DNA from: Natrialbaceae archaeon AArc-T1-2
GTDB taxonomy: Archaea > Halobacteriota > Halobacteria > Halobacteriales > Natrialbaceae
Assembly (NCBI RefSeq): GCF_030273315.1
Contig: NZ_CP127174.1
Span: forward strand, 186,001 to 250,000
Direction: 5' to 3'
DNA length: 64,000 nucleotides
Positions 28,767-47,720 of this stretch are shown piece by piece (the stretch's first letter is position 1; the number at the start of each line of letters is the position of its first letter). Under the pieces are notes generated by a model. The model did not search any database, was not told the origin of the DNA, and saw only the letters and a list, made by a program, of their open reading frames with translations. Made by a program: the position numbers and the translations under genes.

Positions 28767-29325
28767 CTTTCAGACACGGCTCGAAGAGGTCGAACGACTC
28801 GTCCGAGACGATAGAGAGGAAGTCGGGAAGCGAGTGGGGGTTCCGTTCATCGTATTCACGTACGATCCCGCCGACGAAATTGAGGTGGATAAAGAGATTC
28901 GGAACCTTATTGGAAAACTGGAGTACCACGATCAAGCGGTCGCCGGACTCGATATGCGTGAACTTGTCTTCAGCGTGCTTGAGGAGCGAGGTATCCTCGA
29001 AAACGTACTCGATCTCGAACGGCGGGACCGAGAACAGTTGCTCAGCGGACTGAAATCATCGCTCCTTGATGATGGTGAGATGGGTCAGTTGGCGTCCGCT
29101 ATTGCAACACAGGCTGAAGACGCGGACACCGTTATCGTGTATCGAATGGGTATCCTGTACCCGTTTGCGAGTGCGTCGACATTGATGGGGCAGTTGGAGA
29201 CCAACACGCCGGATGACACTCCTATCGTGTTCTGCTATCCTGCGACCGTTGATGACAAGAGTTTAAGATTCCTCGACGAATCTGAAGGAACATACTACCG
29301 CGCGAGGGTAATCGGACATGAGTGA
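28756..29325 (+). CDS. brxB: BrxB (DUF1788) BREX protein
   Basis: This 189-residue protein shows the DUF1788 pattern: VPFIVFTYDPADE near residue 30, VDKEIRNLI, and a Rossmann-like end TVIVYRMGILYPFASASTLMGQ and PIVFCYPATVDDKSLRFL. It overlaps brxA upstream and brxC downstream (8 bp), so all three are co-translated. BrxB is an essential BREX component of unknown biochemical activity. Confidence 0.88.
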   Translation: MLSDFQTRLEEVERLVRDDREEVGKRVGVPFIVFTYDPADEIEVDKEIRNLIGKLEYHDQAVAGLDMRELVFSVLEERGILENVLDLERRDREQLLSGLKSSLLDDGEMGQLASAIATQAEDADTVIVYRMGILYPFASASTLMGQLETNTPDDTPIVFCYPATVDDKSLRFLDESEGTYYRARVIGHE

Positions 29326-32300
29326 CAGTACTTCCACCTACCAAATCAACGAGATCTTCTACCGGCCGATCAATCGGAAGATCGACCGGGTTGTCAAAGT
29401 CGATAACGATGACCCGAGCGTCGTCAAGAAAGAACTCGAAGAGTACATCCTCACCCCACAGCTCGAACGGCACTTCTCGGACGCCCTAGAGGCGGTCATC
29501 GATACGGAACACGCTCAGACAGAGGATGTCGGGATGTGGGTTTCCGGGTTCTTCGGCTCCGGGAAAAGCCACTTCATGAAAATCCTCGGGCACGTTATGG
29601 AAAACCGGGCGTTCGGGGATACGCATGCAGCGGAAATGTTTCGGGATCGGATTGAGGGCAACGAGATGCTTGACGGGGCAGTCTCTGCGGTCACGAACAA
29701 ATTCGAATCCGAGGTGCTGATGTTCCAGATCGGCGCGAAGGCCGACGCATCCGGAAGTGAATCCATCACCGAAATCATTCACCGTGAGTTCAACATTTCC
29801 CGCGGCTACGCGTCGATGCCCTGGGTCGCCCAGATGGAACAGGAACTCGAATCACGCGGTGTGTACGACGACTTTGTCACCACCATCGAGGCAAACACTG
29901 GAAAGGATTGGACAGAGGCTCGTAAGGATGCGATGTTCGTGCGGTCGGATATGGAGACGGCCTTGGTCGAGGCGACCAACGAATTTGACGACGAAGAAGA
30001 CGCAGCCCGGGCTATCGACGACGTTCAGGATAACGTTCTGATCAACGCTTCGACCTTGGCGGAAGACATCGTCGAGTACGTTGAACAGCAGGAACGCGAA
30101 ACGGGGAACAACTGCCGGTACTTCGTCTTCATCGACGAAATTTCACAGTTCATCGGTGATGATGGCCAGCTCCTCTTGGAACTCCAGAGTATCGTCGAGG
30201 AGTTCGGACAGAAAGGGAAAGGGAAGGTGTTCCTTGGGGTCACCTCTCAGGAACAGCTCCAGCAACTCATCCCCGGCGTTCTAGAAAAAGAAGCCGAAGA
30301 GTCGAAAGTCATCGATCGGTTCCCACATAGATTCGACCTTACGTCCGAAAACCTCGATAAAGTCGTCCGTGACCGCGTTCTCAGCAAGAAAGGCGAGGTA
30401 CGGGAAGAAATCGGTACTCTGTACGATGAGCACGAAGGGATCCTTTCGGCCAGGTACAAACTCGATGCTGGACAAAGCCTGAAACCCATCACGAGGGAGA
30501 ACTTCATCGACTGCTATCCCTTCCTTCCGTATCAGCTCGACATTCTCCCGGAGATGTTCAAGGCGCTCGGCAAAGGCTCGGACGATCAACTCGCGGGCAG
30601 TGAACGGACGCTGATCGATGTCACACAGAGTGTTCTGAAGGACGAGACTCACCTCTATAACGAAGATCTCGGGGCGCTCGTCACGCTCGATATGATCTTC
30701 GATGAGATTAGCAACGACATCCCCAGCAGCGATGTCAAGTCCATCCGAGAAGCCACACCGAAGGACGCTGATACAGAGATCGCCCGCAGAGTCCTCAAGT
30801 CACTCTATCTGCTCCAACAGCTCGCCTGGATACCCAACACCGCCGACAACATCGCCACCTCGCTCCAGACGGAGCTCGGCCCCACACAGCAGTTAGAGAG
30901 TGAAGTCAAGGGTACGCTTGATTCACTCGTTGAAGCCGGGCTCGTCGGTCGGAGCGAAGAGGGATACCGGTTCCTTCGGGAAACAGAGCGCGAACTGGAA
31001 AACGAAATCAAGAGTATCGAAGTCGGTCCTGGTGACATCCGTCGATCTTCGAAACGCTTCCTGAACGACATCCTCAACGAGACATCCCGCGTCAACTACG
31101 AGGGGAAAACGTTCCAGTTGAACCTGAGTATCGACGGTGAAGTCGTCGCGTCGAACGGGCACATCGACCTCAAGACTTACTCACCGATCTATCAACGGTA
31201 CGAAGACCTCGACCCGGACGGCCTGAAGACACAGAGCTTCAGTGAAGATGGGACGCTGTATTGGATCGCCGACGACGAGAAGCAACACAACATCTTCGAA
31301 AAGCTGAAATCGATCTACCAGATCAACACCGTCGTCAAAGCAAAGCGTGGTAACGAACTCAGCCAAGAGGAACAGGAAGCCCTCGGGCAAAAGCAGGAAG
31401 ATCTCCAGCGACTCCGTAACGAGGTCGAACGCGAGTTCAAACGAAGCTTCCAGCGTGGGACGCTCATCTACAATGGCGACGCTGAAGAGTTTGACACGAC
31501 AAATACCTCGCTTACCTCGCTCGTGTCGCGGAAAGCGGACAACGCCATCCCGAAAGTCTTCCCCAGTTTCAAACACGGGTCAGCAACGGTCAAGGGTCGA
31601 CACATCGAGCAGATATTCGGTGATCTCCAGGGGTCGTCGAACCCGTCAGTGTTCTCCGAACTCGGCGTCGTCCAGGACGGCGAACTCATCGCAGAGGCTC
31701 GCATCTCAGCCGAGGTCGAAGACGACATTCAGCGACGCGAGAAAGCAGGGGAATCTCGTTCAGGGAGCGACCTGATCGACCACTTCGCAGAGCCACCGTA
31801 CGGATGGAGTCGGGAAGTCGTCCGGTTGGCTGCTGCCGTCCTCTTCCGGAACGGGTCGATCATTCCGACGCATAAGGAGCGGACGTACGAGACGTATTCC
31901 GAGGACGGTGCTCAGGAGCTGTTCACGCAGGTCACGAAGTTCAAGTCCACGTCCTTCGACGAGCGCGAGACGGTCGACGTTGAAACGCGAACGGATGCCA
32001 AACAACTCCTCGATCGGCTTTTCGACCGGAAGGTCAAATCTACCGATCAGGCCGTCGACGAAGGGGTCAGAGAGGCAGCGAACGAGTGGGTATCAACCAC
32101 GAGCACACTCCTCTCGCAACTCCAGCGGGTTGACTTCCCGCTGGCAGACGATGTCGAGGACTTCCAGACACGATTACAGAACCTGCTCCAACAACCCACA
32201 TCAGCCAAGCGCATCAAGCAGTTCGTCGAGTACGAAGACGAACTCGAAGGACTCACGAAAACCGCGAAGGATGTCGCCGAGTTCTGCGGTGAGACGGGCG

Positions 32301-32962
32301 GCGAGAATCGACTGGAGACCTACGAAACCATCCAGCGATTCATCACGACGGAGTGGGAATCCCTCGTCGACGAAGCGGATAGCCATCCAGGGCTCGTCGA
32401 CATCAGCGATGAAGCACGTGAGGCGGCTCAGCGTGTTGCAGACACCCTGGACACAGAAGGTGTCATCAGTCAGTGGAACAACGTCAAAACGGATTACCGA
32501 ACCGCTGCGGAAGCCTTCACGACCACGTACGAAGCTCTGTACGAGGAACGTCACGAGACATACACAGACTCCGTCGAAGCCGTTCGAGCGTATGCTGGTT
32601 CCGATGTCGATGAACCCGATCTCGACGCTGCATTGTCGGATCTAACGAAACGGCAAGGTGAGGGTTCGGTTGATCTGAACATCGCTGGCGAGCAGCACAT
32701 CAATCCATCGCCGTCGCTTCCGCGACTCATCGAGCATATCCAAACAGTTGATGCGTACGAGAACGCTGCGAAGACCGAGATCGACGACCTTGAAGACGAT
32801 GAGGACGACGGAACGCTTCGAGAAAGCGTACACATCAACTCTATCTTCGGATCCGTGGTCGTTACCGATCCGGACGACATCGACGCCCCCATCTCGGAGC
32901 TTCGAGCAGAAATTGAGGATCTGCTCGATCAGGACGGCGATGTCGAGATCCGATTCCGGTAG
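29318..32962 (+). CDS. brxC: BrxC, large P-loop ATPase of BREX
   Basis: This 1214-residue ATPase has Walker A GFFGSGKSHFMKILG (~residue 77) and Walker B YFVFIDEISQFIG (~270), both in the form specific to BrxC/PglY. The opening EIFYRPINRKIDRVVKVDN is also characteristic. The long C-terminal half contains coiled-coil stretches. BrxC is needed for both methylation and phage exclusion in studied BREX systems. It follows brxB with an 8-bp overlap and is followed by ~240 bp with no gene before a winged-helix gene, suggesting that the first transcription unit ends here. Confidence 0.92.
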   Translation: MSDSTSTYQINEIFYRPINRKIDRVVKVDNDDPSVVKKELEEYILTPQLERHFSDALEAVIDTEHAQTEDVGMWVSGFFGSGKSHFMKILGHVMENRAFGDTHAAEMFRDRIEGNEMLDGAVSAVTNKFESEVLMFQIGAKADASGSESITEIIHREFNISRGYASMPWVAQMEQELESRGVYDDFVTTIEANTGKDWTEARKDAMFVRSDMETALVEATNEFDDEEDAARAIDDVQDNVLINASTLAEDIVEYVEQQERETGNNCRYFVFIDEISQFIGDDGQLLLELQSIVEEFGQKGKGKVFLGVTSQEQLQQLIPGVLEKEAEESKVIDRFPHRFDLTSENLDKVVRDRVLSKKGEVREEIGTLYDEHEGILSARYKLDAGQSLKPITRENFIDCYPFLPYQLDILPEMFKALGKGSDDQLAGSERTLIDVTQSVLKDETHLYNEDLGALVTLDMIFDEISNDIPSSDVKSIREATPKDADTEIARRVLKSLYLLQQLAWIPNTADNIATSLQTELGPTQQLESEVKGTLDSLVEAGLVGRSEEGYRFLRETERELENEIKSIEVGPGDIRRSSKRFLNDILNETSRVNYEGKTFQLNLSIDGEVVASNGHIDLKTYSPIYQRYEDLDPDGLKTQSFSEDGTLYWIADDEKQHNIFEKLKSIYQINTVVKAKRGNELSQEEQEALGQKQEDLQRLRNEVEREFKRSFQRGTLIYNGDAEEFDTTNTSLTSLVSRKADNAIPKVFPSFKHGSATVKGRHIEQIFGDLQGSSNPSVFSELGVVQDGELIAEARISAEVEDDIQRREKAGESRSGSDLIDHFAEPPYGWSREVVRLAAAVLFRNGSIIPTHKERTYETYSEDGAQELFTQVTKFKSTSFDERETVDVETRTDAKQLLDRLFDRKVKSTDQAVDEGVREAANEWVSTTSTLLSQLQRVDFPLADDVEDFQTRLQNLLQQPTSAKRIKQFVEYEDELEGLTKTAKDVAEFCGETGGENRLETYETIQRFITTEWESLVDEADSHPGLVDISDEAREAAQRVADTLDTEGVISQWNNVKTDYRTAAEAFTTTYEALYEERHETYTDSVEAVRAYAGSDVDEPDLDAALSDLTKRQGEGSVDLNIAGEQHINPSPSLPRLIEHIQTVDAYENAAKTEIDDLEDDEDDGTLRESVHINSIFGSVVVTDPDDIDAPISELRAEIEDLLDQDGDVEIRFR

Positions 32963-33205
32963 CACACACATCGACATCTTAAAATTTGCTGACGGAGTCG
33001 GGAATAAGTAGACTCTCCGAAACCCACACTCTCAGTCTTACTAAAATCCATCATAGATGTCAAAGATCGTGCGCTGCTCACAGAAGACATATGCAGCATC
33101 CTGATCCCGTCCATTCCACTTGTGTCCGACTGGCTCAACCGAATTGCAGACGTGTGAACGGACCAAAACACCTTCAGAGTGCAACTGATTATATTCAGGT
33201 ACAGT

Positions 33206-33619
33206 ATGCCGGTGCGCATCGAAGACAACGACCCTGAAATCGATCTTCGCCCCGGAACCACAAAATCGGACATCGTCGCGTTTCTATACCGAACTCCTGA
33301 GTGGGGATTCTCCCCGGAAGAGATCAAAGAGTTCCTCAACATCCCCCGAGGAACTGCAACGACCGTACTCAAACACCTATACGACGACAACTACATCGGG
33401 AAAACTGGTGACGGATACTACCACGCCCTCGACAACCGCGAAGACATCCAGCGATATGTCTCAAATCTCGACCAAGTAGACCGGATGTTCAGACATCACC
33501 ACGATGCAGACACCGCCCCTGAAAAACCCGAAAAGCAAATAGGTGAAGGCCATACTGACGAGGAACTCGATGCAGAACTCGCCGAACTGGAAGACAACAC
33601 CGGTGACTTGGCTGAGTAA
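33206..33619 (+). CDS. Winged-helix (MarR-like) DNA-binding protein inside BREX
   Basis: Using the Met at 33206 (MPVRIEDNDPEI), this 137-residue protein has a winged helix at about residues 20-75: KSDIVAFLY, FSPEEIKEFLNIPRGTATTVLKHLYDDNYIGKTGDGYY. An acidic, charged tail follows. It lies between brxC and pglX, each separated from it by about 250 non-coding bases, so it has its own promoter region. A TATA-like GATTATATT lies shortly before the start. It is a natural candidate for regulating the BREX genes, in particular pglX just downstream, though this is only inferred from position. Confidence 0.8.
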   Translation: MPVRIEDNDPEIDLRPGTTKSDIVAFLYRTPEWGFSPEEIKEFLNIPRGTATTVLKHLYDDNYIGKTGDGYYHALDNREDIQRYVSNLDQVDRMFRHHHDADTAPEKPEKQIGEGHTDEELDAELAELEDNTGDLAE

Positions 33620-33867: not shown

Positions 33868-36800
33868 ATGTCAACAACGCACGGTCAACCCGGTCTCTCG
33901 TCGGATCAGCGCTCAACCATCCGAAGCACGATCCTCAGTACGCGCCATACGCTCGAAGCTGAACTCCGTAGACAGCTCGAAAAGTACGGCATCTACGAGG
34001 ACAAGCAGCTTCCGCTGGAGAACCTGACGCACCTCTCCGTCGAGGAGATCGAAACTCGAAGAACGTTGGATGCCGCAATCGAGAGGGAGCTCGAATCCAC
34101 AGAGGGCGATCTAGAGCGGTCGATCACCAACTACGTCCGCGAAGCGACGAAGACCTACCTCAACCGATACGTCGCGCTGAAAACCATCGAAGTTCGCGGC
34201 CTCATCGAGGAAACCATCACCGAACGTCCAGAGTACGGCAACCGGTCGTACATGCACCACACAGTGGCCGAAATAGCCGGCGAGCTAACCAACGCTCCCG
34301 ACGACGGATTCGGAGCCACGCTCGACCTTGCATACCAAGAGATCGGTGCAGAAATTCGAATGATATTCGAGGAGTCTGAACATACCGCTATTGACCTTGA
34401 TCCACAGGTACGTGAAGAAATTCTCGACGAACTTGATGCAATCGATAACGAGGCTTGGGAGAGTGACGAGGCTCTAGGTTGGGTGTATCAGTACTTCGGC
34501 GAAGAGGAACGCGAGGAGATCGACGAGCGAGTCGACGAAGAGAACTATAAGATTGCAGGGACGGACATCGCCACGAAAACGCAACTGTTCACGCCACGGT
34601 ACATCGTCGAGTGGATGGTCGATAATTCGCTTGGGCGGTTGTGGCTCGAAATGAATCGTGGACGAACCAGTATTGCCGACGAGGACCATTGCTTCTATCT
34701 CGCACCCTTGGAAGAGTCCCTGATTGATCGTGACCCGAAGCCAGTTGAGGAGATCACTGTACTTGATCCCGCGTGCGGTAGCGGGCATATGCTGTTCTAT
34801 GCTTTCGACGTTCTCTATCAGATGTACTTGGAAGAAGGGGAAGTACCTGAGAAGTACATCCCACGCGAAATCCTTCGGAACAATCTCTACGGTGTCGATA
34901 TTGATTCAGGAGCGGCACAGATCGCCGCACTATCGCTCTATCTGAAAGCTAAAGATAAATCGCCTGATGTCGAGATCCCGCAGTTGAACATCGTTTCTGC
35001 CGATGCTGTGCTGATCAACGGAGAAAGGAAAGAAGAGGTACTCGAACGGACGGGCTCGGAACTGGAGCGGGAAATTTTAGAGCAAATCTGGAATAGCTTC
35101 GGTGACATCCGCGAATTGGGTAGTCTGGTTCAGGTCGAAGACCGCATTGACGAGGTTCTCGACGAATATCGAGAAGAGTTCGGAGCAACAGGCCAAGCTC
35201 AGTTCACGAGCGGTGGTGGACTAACTTCTCAATCGACCTTCGTTACCGGTGGAGAAGAAGAGTCCTGGGATGAAATAAAATTTCGACTAATGCAGAATGT
35301 CCAGGATCTCGCCAGCGCAGCACTCGAACATAATGACCCAATCGAGGAGATGTTTGCGGCTGAAGTAGGAAAAACAGTCGAGCTTCTAGATGTTCTAATA
35401 GGACAATACGATACCGTCGTCAGCAACCCACCCTATCTGCAGAGTAAGAAGATGGGCGAGACGCTCAAGGATTACATCAGAGACCACTACGTGGGAAAGT
35501 ATGACATCTATGGTGCCTTTATCGAGCGCTGTCTTTCATTCTCTTCCGAGGATGGCCACGTTAGTATGGTCACCCCAGAAAATTTTATGTTCCTGTACTA
35601 TTTCCGAGGATTGCGAAAGAAACTTCTTAATGAGTGCTACTTCATTGAGGCTGCCCACCTCTCCAGATACGGTTTCGAACAGCAGAAAGACGCATACACA
35701 ATTCCTTTCGTACTCAGAGGATCAGTTCCCTCAGAAGGAGAGCCATCTCGGTTCTATAGAATGACGCACGAACAGGAGCACTACAAGAACTATGAGCGTA
35801 AAATTGCAGGATTACGGGAGATCGCTGAAGCGCTTCGTTCTGGCGAAGAACACGACGATGTGTATGCATTCTCTCAAAACAGAATTGATGATATTGGCAG
35901 ACGCCCATTCCTGTACTGGTTCGGCGAAGAAACGCTCGATCTTTTCTCCGAGCACCCTACGCTAGAAGATACAGCAGAAGTTGTTGTTGGATTACAGACA
36001 GGGGATGATGAGACATTTGTTCGAAAGTGGTGGGAGATTCCAAAATCTGAATTAAACAAACGATATAAAAGATTCCAAAAGAGCGGAACTAACTCAGAGT
36101 ACTACGATTATGCCGAAGACTACGTGGACTGGGGGAACTCAGGACAAGATCTGCGCGACGCAGGTGCAAACCTTCGTAACGAGGGATTCTATTTTGATGA
36201 GGGAGTCTCATTCAGAGCCTTTGGGAACTACTTTGTCGGTCGTAAACAACAGGAAGGTTCGATTTTTTCGCACAAGTCCCACGCAGTCTTCTCAGATGAC
36301 ATCTCAGACGAACTCCTCTTAGCAAATCTCAATTCGACTCTCCATAGGTTCATTGGGAACGGACTCAATCCTGGCTTGAGTTTCGAAGTAGGCGACGCAA
36401 AGCGATTCCCGGTGAAAACAGATTACGAATATCAGTCTGAGTTAGTGGAGCTGGTTTCTACTGGCATTCAAGAGCGAAAGGAGCTGTCTCAGTTGACGGA
36501 GACTAGCGCAGACTTCGATGGCGAGAAACTTACAACGCTACTCGAATCGAATTCAACCGATCTCCAGTATGCGAAAGAGGTTAGCCAGGCTCGAATCCTT
36601 ACTGTCCATGGGATTTCAGATACTCTCCTCTTCGATGAATATGAGATCTCCCCTGAGACGCAAGAGCAGATGTACGCAAATCTTCCAAAGAACGCCTCGA
36701 CATATCCTGTGGACCGAAATATCCACGTTGATTATGCAGAATTTTTGAACGAGTATCTGGAAGTAACCGACCTAAATGACGAGCGGATTGATTCAGCAGT

Positions 36801-37587
36801 GGAAACTCTCCGGTCATTGGACGGTGTTACGCTCCGCGAAGCAGCAGAAGAAACTGAACTCTCCCCATTAACCGTGGCTCAGCTTCGGTACGACTACGAC
36901 CTCTATACTGACGATGAGAAGACAATGACCGCAGGTCAAGTGGTTTCACTAATTGTGGGGTCGTTGTTTGGCCGTTGGGAATCTATTACCGATATTCACA
37001 CTCTCGATGACGAGATACTCGCTTTCGACCACTCGGCTACCTCAATCACAAACCGGTTCTCGAAGGCTCTCAACGAATTGTTTCAGGATCCAACGCAGGC
37101 AGAACGCACGCTTGAATCAGCTCTGGGAGATCAGCCGGTTAATTGGCTTCGTGAGAGCTTCTTCCAACACCATCATGTCGAAGAGTACAAGCCACGGGGT
37201 GAGCGGAGCCCAATCTACTGGCAACTCGAAAGTCCAAACGGTGGGTTCAGTTGCTTCGTATATTACCACGAGATAGACTCGAACACGCTCCCGAAGCTCC
37301 GTGGCCAATATCTCGATCCACGGATCGAAAAACTCGAAAACGAACTCGAAACCCTCAACGCTCAGACCAGTGGAGATAACCCGAATAAGGAGCTTCTGAA
37401 GAGGCAGGAAGAAGTTCAAAATGATCTTGATGACATTAAGGAATTCCGTGACACGATCGACGAAATGATCGACGATGGTGTTACGGTTGATGTCGAAAAG
37501 GGGATCTGGGAAAACATCAAGAAGTGGGATCAGTACGAGGTTTTAGAAACTGGACTTCCGAAATTGAAGTCGAGCTACTCCCGATAA
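33868..37587 (+). CDS. pglX: PglX, BREX adenine-specific DNA methyltransferase
   Basis: This 1239-residue N6-adenine methyltransferase marks host DNA in BREX. AdoMet-binding motif I is VLDPACGSGHMLFYAFDV (~residue 298) and catalytic motif IV is VVSNPPYLQS (~520). The N-terminal ~250 residues are helical and a long C-terminal target-recognition region follows, ending in coiled coil. Length and layout match PglX of type 1 BREX. Its start is preceded by a structured leader. The 3' half has lower GC and many AT-ending codons compared with the 5' half, suggesting exchange of the recognition part. Confidence 0.92.
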   Translation: MSTTHGQPGLSSDQRSTIRSTILSTRHTLEAELRRQLEKYGIYEDKQLPLENLTHLSVEEIETRRTLDAAIERELESTEGDLERSITNYVREATKTYLNRYVALKTIEVRGLIEETITERPEYGNRSYMHHTVAEIAGELTNAPDDGFGATLDLAYQEIGAEIRMIFEESEHTAIDLDPQVREEILDELDAIDNEAWESDEALGWVYQYFGEEEREEIDERVDEENYKIAGTDIATKTQLFTPRYIVEWMVDNSLGRLWLEMNRGRTSIADEDHCFYLAPLEESLIDRDPKPVEEITVLDPACGSGHMLFYAFDVLYQMYLEEGEVPEKYIPREILRNNLYGVDIDSGAAQIAALSLYLKAKDKSPDVEIPQLNIVSADAVLINGERKEEVLERTGSELEREILEQIWNSFGDIRELGSLVQVEDRIDEVLDEYREEFGATGQAQFTSGGGLTSQSTFVTGGEEESWDEIKFRLMQNVQDLASAALEHNDPIEEMFAAEVGKTVELLDVLIGQYDTVVSNPPYLQSKKMGETLKDYIRDHYVGKYDIYGAFIERCLSFSSEDGHVSMVTPENFMFLYYFRGLRKKLLNECYFIEAAHLSRYGFEQQKDAYTIPFVLRGSVPSEGEPSRFYRMTHEQEHYKNYERKIAGLREIAEALRSGEEHDDVYAFSQNRIDDIGRRPFLYWFGEETLDLFSEHPTLEDTAEVVVGLQTGDDETFVRKWWEIPKSELNKRYKRFQKSGTNSEYYDYAEDYVDWGNSGQDLRDAGANLRNEGFYFDEGVSFRAFGNYFVGRKQQEGSIFSHKSHAVFSDDISDELLLANLNSTLHRFIGNGLNPGLSFEVGDAKRFPVKTDYEYQSELVELVSTGIQERKELSQLTETSADFDGEKLTTLLESNSTDLQYAKEVSQARILTVHGISDTLLFDEYEISPETQEQMYANLPKNASTYPVDRNIHVDYAEFLNEYLEVTDLNDERIDSAVETLRSLDGVTLREAAEETELSPLTVAQLRYDYDLYTDDEKTMTAGQVVSLIVGSLFGRWESITDIHTLDDEILAFDHSATSITNRFSKALNELFQDPTQAERTLESALGDQPVNWLRESFFQHHHVEEYKPRGERSPIYWQLESPNGGFSCFVYYHEIDSNTLPKLRGQYLDPRIEKLENELETLNAQTSGDNPNKELLKRQEEVQNDLDDIKEFRDTIDEMIDDGVTVDVEKGIWENIKKWDQYEVLETGLPKLKSSYSR

Positions 37588-37656
37588 CACCCTCTGTTAC
37601 CGTCGCTAGCGGCAAAGCTTTATTTGGACTTCTTGAGTTTCTCGATTCATAATCAT

Positions 37657-37848
37657 ATGGTGGAACCTGGTGCCAGCTCTGACGAAATTCGAGAAGAGAT
37701 ATTCACCTCGTTCACCTCAAAGATTGAACAGAGCGAGATTGACGACGAAATCGCTGAAACAGTACTCGCTGAAGTTTTGGCTGATGACCCACCACACGAC
37801 TTTTCGGATGAGCTAATAGCACAGGTCGGTGAAGACGATGAAGCTTGA
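37657..37848 (+). CDS. Small acidic protein coupled to the SMC-like ATPase
   Basis: The Met at 37657 gives a 63-residue acidic helical protein (MVEPGASSDEIREEIF...); the frame is open further upstream to 37624. Its stop lies 11 bases inside the next gene, so translation is coupled. I do not recognise the family. Its size and coupling suggest a partner or regulator of the ATPase that follows. Confidence 0.6.
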   Translation: MVEPGASSDEIREEIFTSFTSKIEQSEIDDEIAETVLAEVLADDPPHDFSDELIAQVGEDDEA

Positions 37849-40330
37849 GAAGCTTACTATCGAGAATTTTCGAGGGGTGAGGGGAACGTACACATTCGAG
37901 CCAGAAGCGAGTAATGCGATTATCGTCGGACCCAACGGGTCCGGAAAAAGTTCGATTTTAGAGGCGATCAACTACCTGCTTACTAATCAAATTCGCCAAT
38001 TGGATCGGGACGGGATGAAGAGCGTCAAGAAGCAGGATGTTATCCCGAATATCGATGCAGATGGTGATTGTGTTGTTACGGGAGTCTTCAAAGACGCCGA
38101 GAATGATACCCAAGTGTCTGTAAAACGGTCTACCGATTCGACTAATCTCGAACCGCAAAAAGAAGATCTTCCTCAATCTCTCCAAAGAACGATCGATACC
38201 GCGCACCAGGGGCAGCACATCCTCACACGGGATGACCTTCTTGACCTCATTATCGCCCAACCCAGCTCTCGGAGAGAGGTACTAAGCGAACTACTTGATC
38301 TTCCGGATATTGACGAACGACGCTTAGCATTGCAACGGACTCGAAAGTCGCTGGAAGGCCAGAAAGAAAAGGCGAAAGCAACCCGTCAAACATCGTACGA
38401 GCGCTTGCAAGAGCTTACGGAATCGAACGCGTCTGATTCTGCCGAGCTCCGGGCAGACACGATTGAGACGATCAATGATCTCAGAAGTTCGTTTGGTGGT
38501 GAGGCTGTGGAAGAGGTTGATCCTGAAACGGTTCGAGAAGGTATTGAATCACCGGCGGAAGCAGTATCTACACAAGCTCTTCAACGGGAACGACCACGGG
38601 CTGAATTAGAGCAGTTCTCTGGTTGGTTAGATGACTTCAATACGGATCTCCCTGATCAAATTGACCAATTGGAAGCGTCACTCAGAGAGTACCAGGAAAA
38701 AGAGGCTGCTGATATTTCTGCGTCGAAACTCGAATTGCTGGAACAGGGGGAAGAAATAATCACCCAAGAGACGGATGTGTGTCCGCTTTGTGAACAGGAC
38801 TGGCGAAGCGACCACTCTTTGCTAAAAGATGTACGCCAACGGCGTGAACAACTCCATGAACTCAAGACCCTCGTAGAGAATATCAATCGGCGAGGGGACG
38901 AGATCAGGAAGCACTTTGAGAAGGGATCGGATTACTTAGAATATCTGATAAAGGAGTTGGGAAAAGACGAATATCCGGAAGTAGAACAGCTGGTGAGATT
39001 TTCCGATGACCTACGAAAATTATCAGATGAATTTTCCGGGAGCTTACTTGATGATGTCGACCACGTCCTGCGTAACCTTCCTGCTGTCGAGTCGGACAGA
39101 ACAGGCGTTGTAATTGAGCTTGAAGGGGTTCTCAACGCAACTGATTCATTGGAATCACAAGCTGAAAACCTCGATGATCTTAGCGATACTGAACGTCGCT
39201 ATGAGCGTCTCAAATCAATTGCTGACCAATGGACGGAATTTCAAAGACTGGATGCGGAAGTTGAGCAACTATCCTCTCTAGTATCTGATGCAGAGGCCGC
39301 TGAGACAGCGTTTATCGCTGCTCGAAGTGAGGTTATCGGTGAAATTTATGACGACATCACCGATCGAGTTGAGACGTACTATAACTCAATCCACTCCGAC
39401 GAATCAGATACTTCAACTTCAATCGTCGTCACGGAAACTGGTGCGGACTTGCAAAAGGAGTTCTATGATGCCGGTGAATATCCGCCACATTCCGTATTTA
39501 GTGAAGGGCACTTGGACTCTTTGGGGCTTTGCCTTCATCTCGCCCTTGCAGACTACCTTCAGCAGGACGAAAAGTCACTTCTTCTTCTTGATGACGTGGT
39601 TATGTCTGTGGACCAAAATCACCGACTCGAAATTGCGCGAATGATTGCAAAGGAGTTCGCAGAGGACTATCAGGTGATTATTACAACCCATGATGAGCTA
39701 TGGGCCGAGCAATTGTCCAGCCAGGGGGCCTTACATGGGGGACCCCAGATACGGTTACGAGAATGGTCTTTCGATGGTGGTGTAAAAGAGAGCCGCAGCT
39801 ACATCGATGTCTACGAACAATGGGAGACTGTTGAGGAAGCGATGGACGCGGATGAAATGGAACGGGCCGCCCATGAACTTCGATATGCTACAGAGCGTAT
39901 GCTCCAGCAGTGTGCAGTATCGTTAGGGGGGAAAGTGGAATACGACCCCCGACTCAGACACACGCTTAGTGATTTCAAGGACTCAGTTTGCAGTCGATTG
40001 GACACTCTGACTGGTAGGGCTAAAGATAATCTTGATCCGGACGATGAGATGTTCTCAAAGGCGAACGAATTGGATAATGCCTATGGGTCGATTCTCCATG
40101 ACGTGGGGAATCAATTGAATAAGGTAAACCGTCGCGTTCACTGGACTCCAGGGCGGTGGTTGACATTGAGTCCGGCGGAATTCGAGGAAGTCTATGAGGC
40201 ACACAGGAAGGCTTACGAACTCCTGTACTGCGATGAATGCGGTTCGTGTATTCGCTATGAAAAATTCGGCAGAAACTACCATGAGCTTCGGTGTAACTGC
40301 CGAGACCACTATGATATTCGATGGAGTTAG
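37838..40330 (+). CDS. SMC/Rad50-like ATPase with zinc-hook motif
   Basis: Using the ATG at 37838, this is an 830-residue ABC-type ATPase. It has Walker A VGPNGSGKSSILEAIN (~residue 34), a Q-loop, coiled coils around a CPLCEQDW zinc-hook-like motif (~313), Walker B LLLLDDVVMSVDQNH (~582) and a His switch TTHDELW. A further C-terminal domain ends with CDECGSC and CNC Cys pairs (zinc finger, ~800-820). It is not one of the standard BREX proteins, yet it lies between pglX and pglZ on the same strand, with a tiny coupled gene before it. DNA-end or loop sensing is plausible by analogy with Rad50/RecF-like defence ATPases. Confidence 0.85.
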   Translation: MKLEKLTIENFRGVRGTYTFEPEASNAIIVGPNGSGKSSILEAINYLLTNQIRQLDRDGMKSVKKQDVIPNIDADGDCVVTGVFKDAENDTQVSVKRSTDSTNLEPQKEDLPQSLQRTIDTAHQGQHILTRDDLLDLIIAQPSSRREVLSELLDLPDIDERRLALQRTRKSLEGQKEKAKATRQTSYERLQELTESNASDSAELRADTIETINDLRSSFGGEAVEEVDPETVREGIESPAEAVSTQALQRERPRAELEQFSGWLDDFNTDLPDQIDQLEASLREYQEKEAADISASKLELLEQGEEIITQETDVCPLCEQDWRSDHSLLKDVRQRREQLHELKTLVENINRRGDEIRKHFEKGSDYLEYLIKELGKDEYPEVEQLVRFSDDLRKLSDEFSGSLLDDVDHVLRNLPAVESDRTGVVIELEGVLNATDSLESQAENLDDLSDTERRYERLKSIADQWTEFQRLDAEVEQLSSLVSDAEAAETAFIAARSEVIGEIYDDITDRVETYYNSIHSDESDTSTSIVVTETGADLQKEFYDAGEYPPHSVFSEGHLDSLGLCLHLALADYLQQDEKSLLLLDDVVMSVDQNHRLEIARMIAKEFAEDYQVIITTHDELWAEQLSSQGALHGGPQIRLREWSFDGGVKESRSYIDVYEQWETVEEAMDADEMERAAHELRYATERMLQQCAVSLGGKVEYDPRLRHTLSDFKDSVCSRLDTLTGRAKDNLDPDDEMFSKANELDNAYGSILHDVGNQLNKVNRRVHWTPGRWLTLSPAEFEEVYEAHRKAYELLYCDECGSCIRYEKFGRNYHELRCNCRDHYDIRWS

Positions 40331-40412: not shown

Positions 40413-42839
40413 ATGGGAGATCTCGCGGATAGCATTATAACAGAACTTCGCCAAAAGTTCGACCGACATCCTGTATGGGTGTGGTACGATGCCCAGGAGA
40501 AGTACAGGGGTGTCCTCGACGAGGTCGAAGCCGCACTCGACGATGTAACGTTCGCCCGCTACGACGGCAGTTATTTCGAGCTGAAGCTCCGACTCCGTGA
40601 CGAAGATCCGAACTACGAGAAGAACTGGCTGTTCTACATCCCCGAGTCACGAAACGACGCAGAGTGGTTCCGAGATGTCCACGCGCTTGGCCGACAGTAC
40701 CGCGTTGGCCAGGACATCGACGACACGCCCGTAACGCAGTTCCTCGTTGAACACGACGAGGAGATCCCCGACGCGTACGAGGACTGGGGGCAGAACCGCG
40801 AGATGCAGCGCAAGGCATTCTTCTGTGTTCTTTTCGATACCGCAGGGCCAGCGACTGACGAATGGATTCGAGCATATCTCGCCGACCCTGAAGCGTATCG
40901 TGAGACGATCGAGGATAACGCGATGGCCGACGCCTGGGATGCACAACTCCGCCACGAGTACGGCATCGACGCCGGATTGGATCCAAAGGAGCTGGCAATC
41001 CAGCTTCTCTTCGGTGAGGTGACGAGTCGGTCCCCGACGGCACAGTACGATAATCTCGCTGCGGACGACGCCCAGGCTGCGGCGGAGTTTTGTGACGATT
41101 GGCAGCAGTACGCCCCAGCTGAGTTCACGCGCTATTCACGGGAGATCGAATCGGACTACGATCTCACAGAGGCTGTGATCGATTCCGATCAAACGCGATG
41201 GGACTCCACTGCGTTCAAGGGGATAGACACGGGCCTCATCCGGCTTGTAATGGATAGGCTCGCTGAGGAAACGTATGCCGATCTTCCGGAAATCGCGGCG
41301 GAACTCAATCGGACAGTCACGAAACGTCGGGACAGTTTCTGGAGCACCGAGGACCTCGTTGATTGGTCGGTGCCTGCTCTGGCGGTCGAAACGCTCCGCC
41401 AGATTGGCACCGTCGATGTCGACGGAGCAAAGGCGCTGGATTCGACGGAACTCGCAGAGCAGTACACGCGCAATGACGGCTGGTGGCAGGTTGACGCGGC
41501 CTATCGGCGCTACATCAACGCGACACAGGCGGCCACATACCCATATCCGAAGGAAGCCACGGTGAAGCGGCAGGTCACCAACCACTACATGGCCTTCCTT
41601 CAGGGTGTCAACCGACCGCTTGCTGAGGTTTTGAGCGACGGTCCAACACTCGGAACACCACAAACGTCGTTCTACGAGGAATTCGTTGACCTAGAGGACG
41701 GAACGGCGATCATCATCTGTGACGGGCTTCGCTATGAACTCGCCGAGACCATCCGCCAAAACCTTGGACGACGAACTGACTTCGAACAAGATCTCAGTGC
41801 AGTTAGCGCTGCACTGCCCTCGATCACCGAGGTCGGCATGGCCGCACACCTTCCAGGAGAACTCGGACTCTCGCTCACCGACGACGAACTCGTCGTCACG
41901 AGTGGCGGTGAGCAAATGGTTGGAAAAGCCGACCGTGTCGAACGACTCAGCGCAGCCGGATTCGAGGTCGTCGATATGGACGAGGTGGGCAACATCTCGT
42001 TGGAAGAACTGACCGAATCCGATCCCGTCCCGCGTGTCGTCTACTCCGGCACGATAGACAAACTCGGTGAAAGCCTCGATGATGACGCCGCATTCAGCCA
42101 AGTCTCGTCTCACGTAGACGATGTCGAACGAACGGTCCAACGTCTGAAGCAGGCAGGTTACACCCGCTTCGTAATCACCAGCGATCACGGGTTCCTGTAC
42201 ACAGATCGCCTGAGCGACGATCACAAGGTCGAATCCCCCGACTTCGCACCAATCGTCAAGCGTCGGTTCGCTGCTGCTGACAGCGAGGCCCCAATCGTTG
42301 ACACGGGCGAATTCATCGAGATCGACCACGGTGCGCTGTCCGAGCTCGGCATCGATGGTTCCGGCATCAAGTTGCTGTTCCCTCGGAGCGTCGCGTGTTT
42401 CAAAGCACAGGGCGGGAATATGCGATATTTCCACGGTGGGATTTCGCTTCAAGAGCTGCTCGTCCCCTGTCTCACCGTGACCACAGAGGAGATCGAAGAG
42501 AGTGCATCGATCAGCTACGATGTCTCGATACCCGACCCGATTACGAACTCGATACTTACCGTCGACATCAAGGCCAAGAGCGGCCAGGTCGCTTTCGACC
42601 CTGCACCGATACTAGAGGTTCGCGCAAGTATTGATGATGAACCAGTTGCGGATGCTGTCACGATGGAGATTTCCCCTGGAGACAACAGCACTCGTGTTCG
42701 ACTCAAGCAGGGGGCCATCTCGGGTGAAGACACGGTTCAATTCGAGGTCATCGATACGGATACCAGAGAAACGATCACGAGGCAGACTGTTGGGCTCGAT
42801 TTACTCTTTGGTGACGACGATATGGGATTCGACGTGTGA
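40413..42839 (+). CDS. pglZ: PglZ, alkaline-phosphatase-fold BREX protein
   Basis: This 808-residue protein has the PglZ core of the alkaline phosphatase superfamily: AIIICDGLRYELAETI (~residue 434, metal-binding Asp), ITEVGMAAHLPGE (nucleophile region) and FVITSDHGFLYTDR (~587, Asp-His metal site). The N-terminal half is helical and the C-terminus is a beta-rich domain. PglZ is the defining gene of BREX; nuclease or phosphodiesterase activity has been reported for relatives. It stands 80 bp after the SMC-like gene and is probably in the same transcript. Confidence 0.92.
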   Translation: MGDLADSIITELRQKFDRHPVWVWYDAQEKYRGVLDEVEAALDDVTFARYDGSYFELKLRLRDEDPNYEKNWLFYIPESRNDAEWFRDVHALGRQYRVGQDIDDTPVTQFLVEHDEEIPDAYEDWGQNREMQRKAFFCVLFDTAGPATDEWIRAYLADPEAYRETIEDNAMADAWDAQLRHEYGIDAGLDPKELAIQLLFGEVTSRSPTAQYDNLAADDAQAAAEFCDDWQQYAPAEFTRYSREIESDYDLTEAVIDSDQTRWDSTAFKGIDTGLIRLVMDRLAEETYADLPEIAAELNRTVTKRRDSFWSTEDLVDWSVPALAVETLRQIGTVDVDGAKALDSTELAEQYTRNDGWWQVDAAYRRYINATQAATYPYPKEATVKRQVTNHYMAFLQGVNRPLAEVLSDGPTLGTPQTSFYEEFVDLEDGTAIIICDGLRYELAETIRQNLGRRTDFEQDLSAVSAALPSITEVGMAAHLPGELGLSLTDDELVVTSGGEQMVGKADRVERLSAAGFEVVDMDEVGNISLEELTESDPVPRVVYSGTIDKLGESLDDDAAFSQVSSHVDDVERTVQRLKQAGYTRFVITSDHGFLYTDRLSDDHKVESPDFAPIVKRRFAAADSEAPIVDTGEFIEIDHGALSELGIDGSGIKLLFPRSVACFKAQGGNMRYFHGGISLQELLVPCLTVTTEEIEESASISYDVSIPDPITNSILTVDIKAKSGQVAFDPAPILEVRASIDDEPVADAVTMEISPGDNSTRVRLKQGAISGEDTVQFEVIDTDTRETITRQTVGLDLLFGDDDMGFDV

Positions 42840-43019: not shown

Positions 43020-43976
43020 ATGTCACTGGAAAACCGTTCTTATACAACTTCAATTCAGGAACGAGATATTGATTTATTATTTATTCAACTGGTCGAAACG
43101 TCATCAGAATTCTGTCGCTGGTTCTGCCAGCAACTCTTCGAGGACTCGGACATTGAGGAACTGTTGTCAGTGAGCAAGTCTGTCGATACAGGAAATGGTG
43201 AATCAGATATTGAGATCGGGATTGAAACCGTGGCAGGTGACAGAGTGCTTCTCCTTGTCGAAAACAAGATTGACGCATCGCTACAGGATAGGCAGGCAGA
43301 ACGCTACCAAGAGCGAGGGGTTCGGTACGTCGAAAAGGACATTTGTGACACGTTCTCCGTGGGACTGATAGCCCCCGCCGACTATGTCAATGAGAACGAT
43401 CGGGAAGCGTTCGGTAACATAATTACTTACGAGTCGATCATCACGTGTCTCGACGGCTTATCTCACGATGCCACGCCATTCGTATCGACGTTGCTTGAAC
43501 AGGCAATCGAGAAACATGCTGGTAGCCACGATGGCCACTCCCCGGTTACGAAGAAAATTCGACAACAAGTACAGGAACGGTCCGATGAATTCCCAGACCT
43601 CGTAGCCTACGAAACGAGCAACAATCTCGTAAGGTTCCGATCGACGCACCCTGAACATCCCAAGTCAGTGCGGTATGTCGTTTGGGTCATCGGATCTAGT
43701 GGTGGTCGAGAAGCGATGGTTCGACTTAGCATTGCGAATAACAACCCGGATTTAGAGATCAAAGCGATTCAGGAATACGTAACTGAGGAGTTCGGATCAC
43801 TGGATGGATTCGAGATTAGAGACCACGTCACAATGGATACCGTCCGAACCTACGTCACGACTGGCCGTGATGCTTCACCGACGAACGACGATTATATCGA
43901 AGATATTGTCTCTACCTTGCAACGACTTGTTTCCTTCTCGCACCCACGGTTTGTCGAATCGGGACAGTTTCGTTAG
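43020..43976 (+). CDS. PD-(D/E)XK nuclease-fold protein in the BREX locus
   Basis: This 318-residue protein carries a PD-(D/E)XK core in its first ~110 residues: ESDIEIGIETVAGDRVLLLVENKIDASLQDRQAERY supplies the Asp, E-x-K and the following Gln/Arg helix. The rest has a small beta-rich domain (RFRSTHPEHPKSVRYVVWV). It is of the PDDEXK-superfamily type often found as BREX or restriction cargo. It sits 180 bp downstream of pglZ and upstream of a TIR gene, separating brxL from the core, so this is an insertion hot spot for accessory effectors. Confidence 0.78.
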   Translation: MSLENRSYTTSIQERDIDLLFIQLVETSSEFCRWFCQQLFEDSDIEELLSVSKSVDTGNGESDIEIGIETVAGDRVLLLVENKIDASLQDRQAERYQERGVRYVEKDICDTFSVGLIAPADYVNENDREAFGNIITYESIITCLDGLSHDATPFVSTLLEQAIEKHAGSHDGHSPVTKKIRQQVQERSDEFPDLVAYETSNNLVRFRSTHPEHPKSVRYVVWVIGSSGGREAMVRLSIANNNPDLEIKAIQEYVTEEFGSLDGFEIRDHVTMDTVRTYVTTGRDASPTNDDYIEDIVSTLQRLVSFSHPRFVESGQFR

Positions 43977-44250
43977 TGAATTGTTCATTTGATATGGATT
44001 ACTGAGAAGTTTATTGTTTTGCGTGAATCCTCTCCAATGGTTTGCAGATACAGCATGCAAGATCCATGGCGCATATCTGGCAAAATACAGTTTGATCATT
44101 GGATTTATCAATAATACGAGAGCGAATACCAGTTATAATTGGAACAGGACTATCGGCACAATAGCTTATTATCAGAAGTCGGTTATTGAGATGCATCTAT
44201 CAAAGGTGATTGAGGCGTAATTTGATTACTGGAAAGCGTTAACACCCGAT

Positions 44251-45450
44251 ATGGGATTTAAACAGTTTATTAATAGATCAGATGCAAACACACCTGAAGA
44301 AATTGTCGGGCTTACTGTTTATTATCTAATGATGTACGGGGGGGAAGACACGGTACAATCAAGTATCGCTCATGATATACTAGATTTGTTTGATTTCCCC
44401 ATTAGTGAAACTGCTATTGCATTGAACATGAAGAAAATAAAAGAAGATGGAGATTTAAGATACTTTGAGCGATCAAATGCCCCATCTGGATACATACTCA
44501 CACAAGGTGGGATGGAACGTTTCGAAAATTTAGCACCCGCTGTCAAATCTACTGAAGAGGGATTTAAGATTTCAACAGATAATAAAATAACCCAAAGACG
44601 AGCAAGCGATAGTAACTGGGACATGTTCATCTCACACGCGAGTGAGGACAAAGACGATTTTGTTAAACCTTTAGCAAATACGCTTGAAGAAAGGGGATCA
44701 AAGATCTGGTATGATGATTTTCAGTTATCTATTGGGGATAGTATCCCAGAGGAGATCGACAAGGGTCTCTCAAAATCAGATTACGGTGTTGTTGTCCTAT
44801 CGGATGCTTTCTTCCAAAAGGATTGGCCTCAAGAAGAGCTTCATAGTTTAATTCACAAAAATGTCGACTCAAAAAGAAATATAATCCTTCCAGTATGGTA
44901 CGATATTGGGAGTGAGCAAGTCGCCAATAACAGTCCATTATTAGCATCTCGAATGGCGATTCGTGCTGATAGTTCCTCTATAGATGAGGTGGCTGATCAA
45001 CTTTTAGAAGAAATCCAATCAGTTGAGAGTTCTGGTGTAGATCAGAATAAATTCGATCCGCGAACAAGAGACTATCTCGCTGATTTAATTTCCAAAACTT
45101 GGACAGGAGATGACTTATCCAGATTCTTCGAAAGGCAAGATATTGATATTGACTGGGATGCTGCCAAAGAAGGAACGATACGTGAACATATTGCAACATT
45201 TCCAGTAGAAGCAGAAGAAAAAGGATTAGATTTGGAACGTGCCCGAAAAACCGCCGTACGGGATGTATTAGAGGAAGTAAACCGCAATGAAAACCGTTCT
45301 TTAGAGGATATTATCACGGAGTTTGCCCATCCCCAATCTTATATCGGTAATCAGGATAAGCATTCTCAGGTTGTCTCCGAATTAAATTCAGCACTTGAAT
45401 ACGAGGGTTTGAAAGTTAATTCTAATGGAGAATTATTTGACTTGGAATAA
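44251..45450 (+). CDS. TIR-domain defence protein
   Basis: This 399-residue protein starts with a winged-helix-like segment (residues ~15-95, ALNMKKIKEDGDLRYF). The TIR domain (~125-255) includes WDMFISHASEDKDDFVKPLA, IWYDDFQLSIGDSIPEEIDKGL and the WPQEELHSL segment holding the expected catalytic Glu of NAD-cleaving TIRs. The C-terminal ~110 residues form a helical module that I do not recognise. TIR effectors usually deplete NAD or make a signal on infection. The gene and its flanks (43.98-45.55 kb) are markedly AT-rich compared with the neighbouring BREX genes, with many AAA and ATA codons, so it was probably acquired from another source. Confidence 0.88.
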   Translation: MGFKQFINRSDANTPEEIVGLTVYYLMMYGGEDTVQSSIAHDILDLFDFPISETAIALNMKKIKEDGDLRYFERSNAPSGYILTQGGMERFENLAPAVKSTEEGFKISTDNKITQRRASDSNWDMFISHASEDKDDFVKPLANTLEERGSKIWYDDFQLSIGDSIPEEIDKGLSKSDYGVVVLSDAFFQKDWPQEELHSLIHKNVDSKRNIILPVWYDIGSEQVANNSPLLASRMAIRADSSSIDEVADQLLEEIQSVESSGVDQNKFDPRTRDYLADLISKTWTGDDLSRFFERQDIDIDWDAAKEGTIREHIATFPVEAEEKGLDLERARKTAVRDVLEEVNRNENRSLEDIITEFAHPQSYIGNQDKHSQVVSELNSALEYEGLKVNSNGELFDLE

Positions 45451-45692: not shown

Positions 45693-47720
45693 ATGACGAC
45701 TGAGGACGTGGATCGAAAAGCCCTGAATGTCTTCCCCGGGCGCGTCGTCCGGAAAGACCTCGTTCAGGACATCAAATCCGGGGTGAACGTCCCCACCTAC
45801 GTCCTCGAATATCTAATCGGACAGTACTGCGCGACCGATGACGAAGAATCTCTGGAAGAGGGCCTCGAAAAGGTCAAACAGATTCTCTCAAAGCACTACG
45901 TTCGCCCCGACGAAGCCGAATTCGTCAAGAGTGAAGTCCGAGAACGCGGGCGTTATCGTGTCATCGACAAGGTCACCGTCCGGCTGGATGAGCAACAGGA
46001 CGCCTACATCGGTTCGTTCGTGAATCTTGGATTGAACGATGTTGAGATCAACGAACATCTCGTCAGCAAACACCCGAAGCTTCTGGGCGGCGGTGTCTGG
46101 GCCATCATCGACCTGGAATATCTCCCAGACAACGCAAATAGCCCCAAGAGCCTCTTTGGCATCGACTCGTTCAAACCGATTCAGGTCTCCAACCTCAATC
46201 TCGACCAACTGAAGGAACGGCGGGAACAATTCACGCGCGACGAATGGATGGATCTGCTTCTTCAAACCGTCGGCTACGATCCGTCCTCGTTCAGCGGCCG
46301 CGAAAAGTTCCTCTTCTTGACTCGCTGTATCCCACTCGTCGAGTCCAATTACAACTTCGTCGAGCTGGGGCCACGCGGGACGGGCAAAAGCTATCTCTAC
46401 CGAGAGATCAGCCCCCACTCGATTCTCATCTCCGGCGGGAAAACCACCGTCGCAAAGCTGTTTTTGAATCTCAATACTGGCCGGATCGGACTCGTAGGTC
46501 GTTGGGATGTCGTCGCCTTCGACGAGGTCGGGGGGCTCCAGTTCAGCGATTCGGAAGCCGTCCAGATGCTCAAAGATTATATGGAGTCCGGAAGCTTCTC
46601 CCGCGGAACCGAGGAACTGACCGCCCAGGCCTCGATGGTCTACGTCGGAAACATTGACCTGGATGTTGAAGGCGTTCTCAAGAGCTCTCACCTCTTCGAG
46701 CCATTCCCTGAGGATATGCAGGATCTCGCACTTATCGATCGGTTCCACTACTACCTTCCGGGCTGGGAAGTCCCGAAGATGCGTTCCGAGTTCTTCGGTG
46801 ATCAGTTCGGCTTCATCGTCGATTACTTCGCTGAGTTCGTCCGGGAGCTCCGCAAGGAGTCATACGGTGACGCGATCAACGAGGAGTTTGCGTTTGGTGA
46901 TCACCTGAACCAGCGGGACGAAAAGGCCGTACGTAAGACCGTTTCTGGTCTGCTCAAACTCCTTCATCCTCACGGCCAATACACGAAAGAAGAGCTCCGA
47001 GAATACCTCGAATTCGCTATGGAAGGCCGCCGTCGAGTCAAAGAGCAATTGAAGCGGATGGGTGGGATGGAATATCGGGCCGTCGAATTTTCGTATCTCG
47101 ACTTGGAGACCAAACAGGAGATCCATGTCTCGGTTCCCGAGGAAGCGGATGAAGCACTCATTCCCCCCGGAACACAACAGGCAGGGACGATCTACACGAT
47201 CGGTGAGAGCGGAGGACGCCATGCTCCGTTCCGAATCGAGACACAGACGCTTCCAGGATCAGGCAAGACGAATATTTCGGGCACCCCGGGCAAGCGAATG
47301 AAAGAGTCCTTCGAGACCGCCTGTGACTATCTACAGGCGAATATGCGTGAACTCACTCGTGAGGAGACTCTGGATGACTACAACATCAACATCCAGGTTC
47401 TGAACCCCTCTGATGCGAATGAGGGTGGTGAAACGAGTGTCGGACTCCTCGTAGGCATTGTTTCGGGGATTCTTGATCGACCGGTCCGGCCACAGACCGT
47501 CGTACTGGGATCGATGAGCTTGATGGGCGAGTTAGTCTCCGTGAGTTCGTTGATCGATAAACTCCAGTTGTCTGCGGATTCTGGAGCCAAAACGGTGCTC
47601 CTTCCAGCGAAGAACAAAGAAGACTTGCCGAAAATCCCCGATGAACTCCTTGACCAGCTCCAACTTGTGTTCTACACTAATCCCCTTGATGCGGCTAGTA
47701 AGGCGATTGAACTGGAGTAG
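45693..47720 (+). CDS. brxL: BrxL, Lon-like BREX AAA+ protein
   Basis: This 675-residue protein matches BrxL. It has an N-terminal domain, AAA+ Walker A FVELGPRGTGKSYLYREI (~residue 226), Walker B VVAFDEVGGLQF (~275) and a C-terminal Lon-protease-like domain (~540-670; ETSVGLLVGIVSGIL, LGSMSLMGEL). brxL is the last gene of type 1 BREX, where it forms a DNA-binding hexameric or dodecameric ring. Here it is separated from pglZ by a nuclease and a TIR gene and has its own 240-bp upstream region, so it may be separately expressed. Confidence 0.92.
   Translation: MTTEDVDRKALNVFPGRVVRKDLVQDIKSGVNVPTYVLEYLIGQYCATDDEESLEEGLEKVKQILSKHYVRPDEAEFVKSEVRERGRYRVIDKVTVRLDEQQDAYIGSFVNLGLNDVEINEHLVSKHPKLLGGGVWAIIDLEYLPDNANSPKSLFGIDSFKPIQVSNLNLDQLKERREQFTRDEWMDLLLQTVGYDPSSFSGREKFLFLTRCIPLVESNYNFVELGPRGTGKSYLYREISPHSILISGGKTTVAKLFLNLNTGRIGLVGRWDVVAFDEVGGLQFSDSEAVQMLKDYMESGSFSRGTEELTAQASMVYVGNIDLDVEGVLKSSHLFEPFPEDMQDLALIDRFHYYLPGWEVPKMRSEFFGDQFGFIVDYFAEFVRELRKESYGDAINEEFAFGDHLNQRDEKAVRKTVSGLLKLLHPHGQYTKEELREYLEFAMEGRRRVKEQLKRMGGMEYRAVEFSYLDLETKQEIHVSVPEEADEALIPPGTQQAGTIYTIGESGGRHAPFRIETQTLPGSGKTNISGTPGKRMKESFETACDYLQANMRELTREETLDDYNINIQVLNPSDANEGGETSVGLLVGIVSGILDRPVRPQTVVLGSMSLMGELVSVSSLIDKLQLSADSGAKTVLLPAKNKEDLPKIPDELLDQLQLVFYTNPLDAASKAIELE

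Follow-up and report, generated by a model that had tools for sequence, protein, structure and literature searches.

The closest described counterparts of the gene pair analysed here are RloC and PrrC, Lamassu, PARIS, and BrxU/GmrSD with other accessories of the BREX slot. RloC combines a zinc-hook ABC ATPase with an RNase carrying an Arg-X3-Glu...His triad (PMC2610378) and is activated by DNA breaks (PMC3874168), and PrrC is freed once a phage blocks the restriction enzyme to which it is linked (PMC3710099). HEPN proteins of the RloC family also occur in Pgl operons, and DUF4145 is itself a HEPN family (PMC3710099). In Lamassu, LmuB usually has the Walker B Glu changed to Gln and often has a CPxCG hook, while the gene for the small protein LmuC/MC stands mid-operon (PMC10586767). 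Finally, the slot between pglX and pglZ of BREX loci can house additional genes: in Salmonella LT2 it holds an ATPase together with a DUF4435 protein, which are dispensable for methylation (PMC9009780), and a recent survey terms such slot genes back-up effectors (PMC12839542).

Here we describe two overlapping genes found in this slot in the window, i.e. the whole 64,000-nucleotide stretch of Natrialbaceae archaeon AArc-T1-2 DNA that was analysed. On balance, the pair is probably a mobile unit of two genes that is complete in itself and serves as back-up immunity, comparable to RloC/PrrC and placed in an accessory slot of BREX.

Results

The pair is flanked by a haloarchaeal BREX-1 operon, of which BrxA (27954-28766), BrxB (28756-29325), BrxC (29318-32962), PglX, PglZ and BrxL (45693-47720) were recognized by profile matches. 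The left edge of the slot is pglX, the BREX-1 methyltransferase gene (33868-37587, plus strand; NF033452, 8e-215), and the right edge is pglZ (40413-42839, plus strand; PF08665, 1e-21; TIGR02687, 1.5e-49). With BREX-1 genes on both flanks, the placement inside the BREX core that an earlier note on this DNA had claimed is confirmed.

All features of the slot are on the plus strand. A predicted promoter-like leader (37610-37656, AAAGCTTTATTTGGACTTCTTGAGTT, with a TATA-like TTTAT), conserved with relative L001 and with the non-BREX relative L029, precedes a micro-gene (37657-37848) for an acidic protein of 63 residues, a predicted helical partner that belongs to no known family. The micro-gene overlaps by 11 bp the gene of an 830-residue Rad50-like ABC ATPase (37838-40330), which has a zinc hook, a C-terminal HEPN domain and a zinc ribbon. 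The coordinates of both ORFs had been given correctly in the earlier note; the ATPase starts at the ATG at 37838, an alternative GTG upstream (at 37829) being possible.

The description of the ATPase as SMC/Rad50-like also holds: Pfam yields SMC_N at 2e-22 and AAA_23 at 2.1e-19, and all ABC motifs are present. Among PDB sequences Rad50 is nearest (3.2e-20), and the best fold match of the full-length model is Rad50 of Mre11-Rad50-Nbs1 (5.6e-12). Walker A reads GPNGSGKS (residues 31-38, 37928-37951) and Walker B reads LLLLDD (residues 581-586, 39578-39595), where Asp replaces the usual catalytic Glu (compare RloC). The zinc-hook motif CPLC, noticed earlier, is present at residues 315-318 (38780-38791). 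For comparison we used a sample of 37 relatives (window included) from Archaea, Alphaproteobacteria and Bacteroidota: CPxC is invariant (37/37) and Walker B is LDD in 37/37, the corresponding stretch of RloC relatives being DDP.SSL.

The HEPN domain is absent from the earlier description. Residues 656-796 (39803-40225; R682, E686, N764 and H768) and the ribbon behind them (Cys4, residues 798-830, 40229-40327) constitute a HEPN-superfamily domain of DUF4145-like type plus a zinc ribbon, as seen by AF2, hhalign and a motif survey. The ribbon corresponds to the second C-terminal zinc finger reported before, with cysteines at 798, 801, 819 and 821, three of which are invariant and one nearly so. 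In the AF2 model (pLDDT 89.5) a helical bundle is followed by the ribbon, with helices at 19-40, 55-76, 82-109 and 124-141 of the model giving an all-helical four-helix fold. Aligned by hhalign to a DUF4145 profile built from nine proteins, the domain reaches a score of 38.6 (probability 84.7, E 6.7e-6), against a mean of 10.8 and a maximum of 17.4 for 150 column shuffles (0/150 reach 38.6), 10-16 for unrelated segments of the ATPase and 22 for the reversed domain. Here AAxxxRxxxE is placed on AAxxxRxxxE and Nx3H on Nx3H. Single-sequence Pfam scans of the C-terminal domain missed the HEPN that the profile comparison detected, and the isolated domain model gave no significant fold match to PDB and viral models; the best match from the HEPN clan is 2q00, which is weak (TM ~0.4-0.5).

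Among 34 C-terminal domains the His is invariant (34/34). In 27/34, including the window, Arg is found in R-x3-E (one with Asp) and there is no Arg before the Asn; 7/34 have G-x3-E together with the classical RN-x3/4-H. The Arg of Rx4-6H is limited to these 7/34, and the HEPN of the window is without it. Arg is always at one of the two alternative sites, with both or neither in 0/34. Because the tree requires only at least two switches of the Arg site (two independent events only), and given that the domains are not statistically independent, the alternation can be called suggestive of one Arg being always required. The same loss of Arg with His kept is seen in PaREP1 (PMC3710099). The PaREP1 structure is 2q00, one of the weak fold matches mentioned above. 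A stand-alone copy of the HEPN-ribbon part, having neither ATPase nor micro-gene, occurs at L028:9670-10203.

Comparison with known systems

The module resembles RloC and PrrC in its Rad50-like ABC head, into which a coiled coil bearing the CPxC zinc hook is inserted, in the Asp-Asp Walker B, in the association with restriction loci, and in the C-terminal HEPN with Arg-x3-Glu and, later, Asn-x3-His. It differs from RloC in that its HEPN is nearest to DUF4145, the Glu-His spacing is X81 in the window against X36-52 in RloC, an extra C-terminal zinc ribbon is present, and the upstream micro-gene is obligate, whereas in RloC genes a small ORF is found there in 1/7 cases and is not acidic. With the triad spacing at X81, RloC membership was not accepted. 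The profile match to the RloC C-terminal domain is not significant (score 18.5, equalled by 1/150 shuffles). A search of archaea with PF13166 returned one RloC-like gene only, in two frames.

Lamassu/ABC-3C (LmuB, LmuC) likewise has a Rad50-like zinc-hook ATPase with an adjacent small-protein gene, and acts, as is thought, by abortive infection. The best PADLOC match of the ATPase is LmuB (9.9e-31, over most of the model; Rad50 models also match well), and the small mid-operon LmuC/MC and frequent CPxCG hook of LmuB (PMC10586767) can equally be brought forward for a Lamassu-related reading of the pair. We nevertheless consider this reading unlikely. No LmuA-type effector gene adjoins the pair in the loci examined, the effector-like domain being fused to the ATPase, and Walker B has Asp in 37/37 relatives and not the Gln usual in LmuB. 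The micro-protein gave no convincing match in Pfam, PADLOC, PHROGs or NCBIfam, and in Pfam and PADLOC none of the LmuC kind, and the His and Arg retained in every HEPN domain suggest that the domain may be catalytic. Lamassu membership was not accepted in view of the Walker B Asp and the lack of a conserved third gene or LmuA next to the pair.

PARIS (AriA and AriB) is alike in being a two-gene combination of ATPase and effector in the pglX-pglZ slot of BREX (PMC9009780, PMC12839542). AriA, however, is an OLD-family ATPase whereas the ATPase of the module is Rad50-like, and AriB is TOPRIM/DUF4435 whereas the effector of the module is HEPN, with the order small gene then ATPase. PARIS membership was not accepted, the partner being a 63-residue predicted helical protein and not TOPRIM/DUF4435. 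For BrxU/GmrSD and the other slot accessories the likeness consists of defence genes in the same slot, but the proteins are unrelated.

The micro-gene

In nearly every relative an upstream ORF of 51-114 residues lies on the same strand and abuts or overlaps the ATPase start. When ORFs of 45-120 residues that end at the start codon are counted, 24/25 ATPase relatives have one, against 16/159 other genes of the same loci (Fisher p 1.9e-18). The bacterial plasmid records carry the micro-gene too, mostly with a 4-bp overlap, and in Hymenobacter (L053) an unannotated upstream ORF is similar to its Fibrella counterpart. Archaeal micro-proteins have a mean net charge of -12. For the three closest sequences dN is 0.12-0.15 and dS 0.7-1.2 (dN/dS ~0.1-0.17), with substitutions mainly at third codon positions; these patterns show that selection acts on the micro ORF at the protein level.

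Three relatives (L022, L023 and L024) have no HEPN domain, their ATPases stopping short of the C-terminal domain. Because the micro-gene is retained in these three, it goes with the ATPase part, and we conclude that it belongs to the ATPase. The same observation bears on a toxin-antitoxin reading, where the micro-protein would be the direct antitoxin of the HEPN domain. A small acidic protein whose gene lies upstream of, and overlaps, a HEPN-bearing gene is what such a reading would predict, but a micro-protein that persists where the HEPN is missing is not a simple HEPN antitoxin, which renders this explanation improbable.

Relation to BREX

Five of the 37 relatives occupy the pglX-pglZ slot, namely the window and L001 in BREX-1, L021 (Halorhabdus tiamatea pHTIA) in BREX-5, and, outside the haloarchaea, L039 and L042 in BREX-1-like loci. 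The other 32/37 are without an adjoining BREX gene, with the remark that the gene contexts of some relatives are shortened by contig ends. On the tree the BREX label changes five times, and because one of these changes sits on a weakly supported branch, the tree indicates that the pair entered the slot four to five times, in at least four lineages and in both BREX-1 and BREX-5. In L039 an HD-domain phosphohydrolase-like gene (L039:5451-6881) is found beside the module in the slot.

The non-BREX relative L029 has the pair with 78% protein identity to the window, and the DNA of the two is similar only over 37610-40326 (75% identity), covering the leader and the two genes. The pair is a unit with its own promoter-like leader that stands alone in other genomes too.

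In 20 further haloarchaeal BREX-1 loci the pair is never seen in the slot (0/20). Five of them have a closed slot (6-7 bp); it measures 0.5-1.2 kb in 11 and ~3.4 kb in 4, and its occupants are TBP-like proteins, GmrSD (L077 by Pfam, L076 by similarity), a 353-residue RHWANYH protein or other genes. The pattern is consistent with a slot of varying content that takes up an accessory cassette. A core component of BREX was rejected as a description, given the 5/37 relatives with BREX and the 0/20 loci just mentioned. The TATA-binding-protein-like genes in the slot lie on either strand (L061, L062, L064, L067, L069 and L071), with a Pfam TBP match for L061 only. The 353-residue protein (L068:3346-4407, L072:3334-4395) has no Pfam match, and its RHWANYH motif is HEPN-like by eye.

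The earlier note suggested that the ATPase works with PglX or PglZ, a proposal against which homologous pairs lying mostly outside BREX were said to count; the 32/37 relatives without a neighbouring BREX gene are such pairs. The link with BREX itself stands, in that BREX-1 and BREX-5 loci of at least four lineages have the pair at precisely this position, pglX on one side and pglZ on the other, and it is this placement that might be used to argue for a functional BREX part. Several findings speak against the partnership: most relatives lie outside BREX, the slot is empty or otherwise filled in other BREX loci (without the pair in 20/20 haloarchaeal BREX-1 loci), and the module moves as a unit with its own leader. 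We therefore give a functional BREX part little probability. The further suggestion that the ATPase senses DNA ends is plausible from its homology to Rad50/RloC.

Distribution

Whole-genome searches find the ATPase in 13/394 genomes of the window's order, with more in the class and phylum, and were far more productive than a degenerate scan of genome contigs, which returned Halohasta litorea only. Full-length relatives are plasmid-borne in Phaeobacter, Rhizobium, Roseibium, Mesorhizobium, Bradyrhizobium, Sphingomonas, Pseudohalocynthiibacter, Aliiroseovarius, Hymenobacter and Fibrella. The viral contigs and phage genomes searched contain no relatives of the ATPase.

An AddAB-like pair of PD-(D/E)XK nuclease and UvrD helicase, or a remnant of the pair, occurs <=10 kb from the module, or from the C-terminal domain where this stands alone, in L019, L020, L021, L026, L028 and L029 (6/16 of the haloarchaeal genomes that carry it); this may be defence-island clustering. 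Although these six loci and the Rad50-like head could point to a mobile Rad50-like helper in DNA repair or end processing that has no immune role, the patchy spread, the plasmid location and the neighbouring McrB-like, Hma, GmrSD, TIR and restriction genes make this very improbable.

Proposed function

For the back-up immune module that we favour, we infer by analogy with RloC/PrrC the RNase activity, what triggers it and which RNA it cuts; what the micro-protein does is inferred too. A dimer of the zinc-hook ATPase would hold the HEPN RNase inactive until DNA ends, or DNA arising when BREX is blocked or overrun, alter the ATPase and free the RNase; the released HEPN would then cut cellular RNA (perhaps tRNA). 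By the same analogy, the module would stop the infected cell upon a build-up of DNA ends or a block of BREX. The micro-protein would be made just before the ATPase through coupled translation and might bind the ATPase or its coiled-coil part, thereby setting the off state or the assembly.

More tentatively, and with doubt slightly outweighing confidence, the pair could represent an undescribed immune system of Archaea and Bacteria, in which a Rad50-like zinc-hook sensor is fused to a DUF4145-type HEPN RNase, has an obligate acidic regulator of ~60 residues for the ATPase head, and has settled several times between pglX and pglZ, where it would guard BREX and fire upon its inhibition; a prior mention of the family is possible. 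The pair adds a recurrent occupant to the accessory slot and provides archaeal BREX with a candidate for the kind of back-up effector that PARIS represents in enterobacteria. Its obligate micro-gene, which annotation models lack, gives a way to study how a Rad50-like sensor might restrain a fused RNase, and the module is small and movable.

Other features of the window

A second insertion is located between pglZ and brxL (43020-45450) and encodes two proteins, one of PD-(D/E)XK_4 type and one with TIR, the latter showing strong ThsB-like/PDC-S66 matches. Just 5' of brxA, a 215-residue gene of no known family (27297-27944) has a relative at the equivalent place in the BREX-1 locus L073 and is possibly an extra haloarchaeal BREX gene. 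The interval between brxC and pglX contains a MarR-like winged-helix gene (33179-33619), a possible regulator. Further downstream, at 50657-50892, imperfect 84-nt direct repeats with a 42-nt sub-spacing are found around TGTAACAATC, flanked by genes that by eye resemble type III CRISPR RAMP genes.
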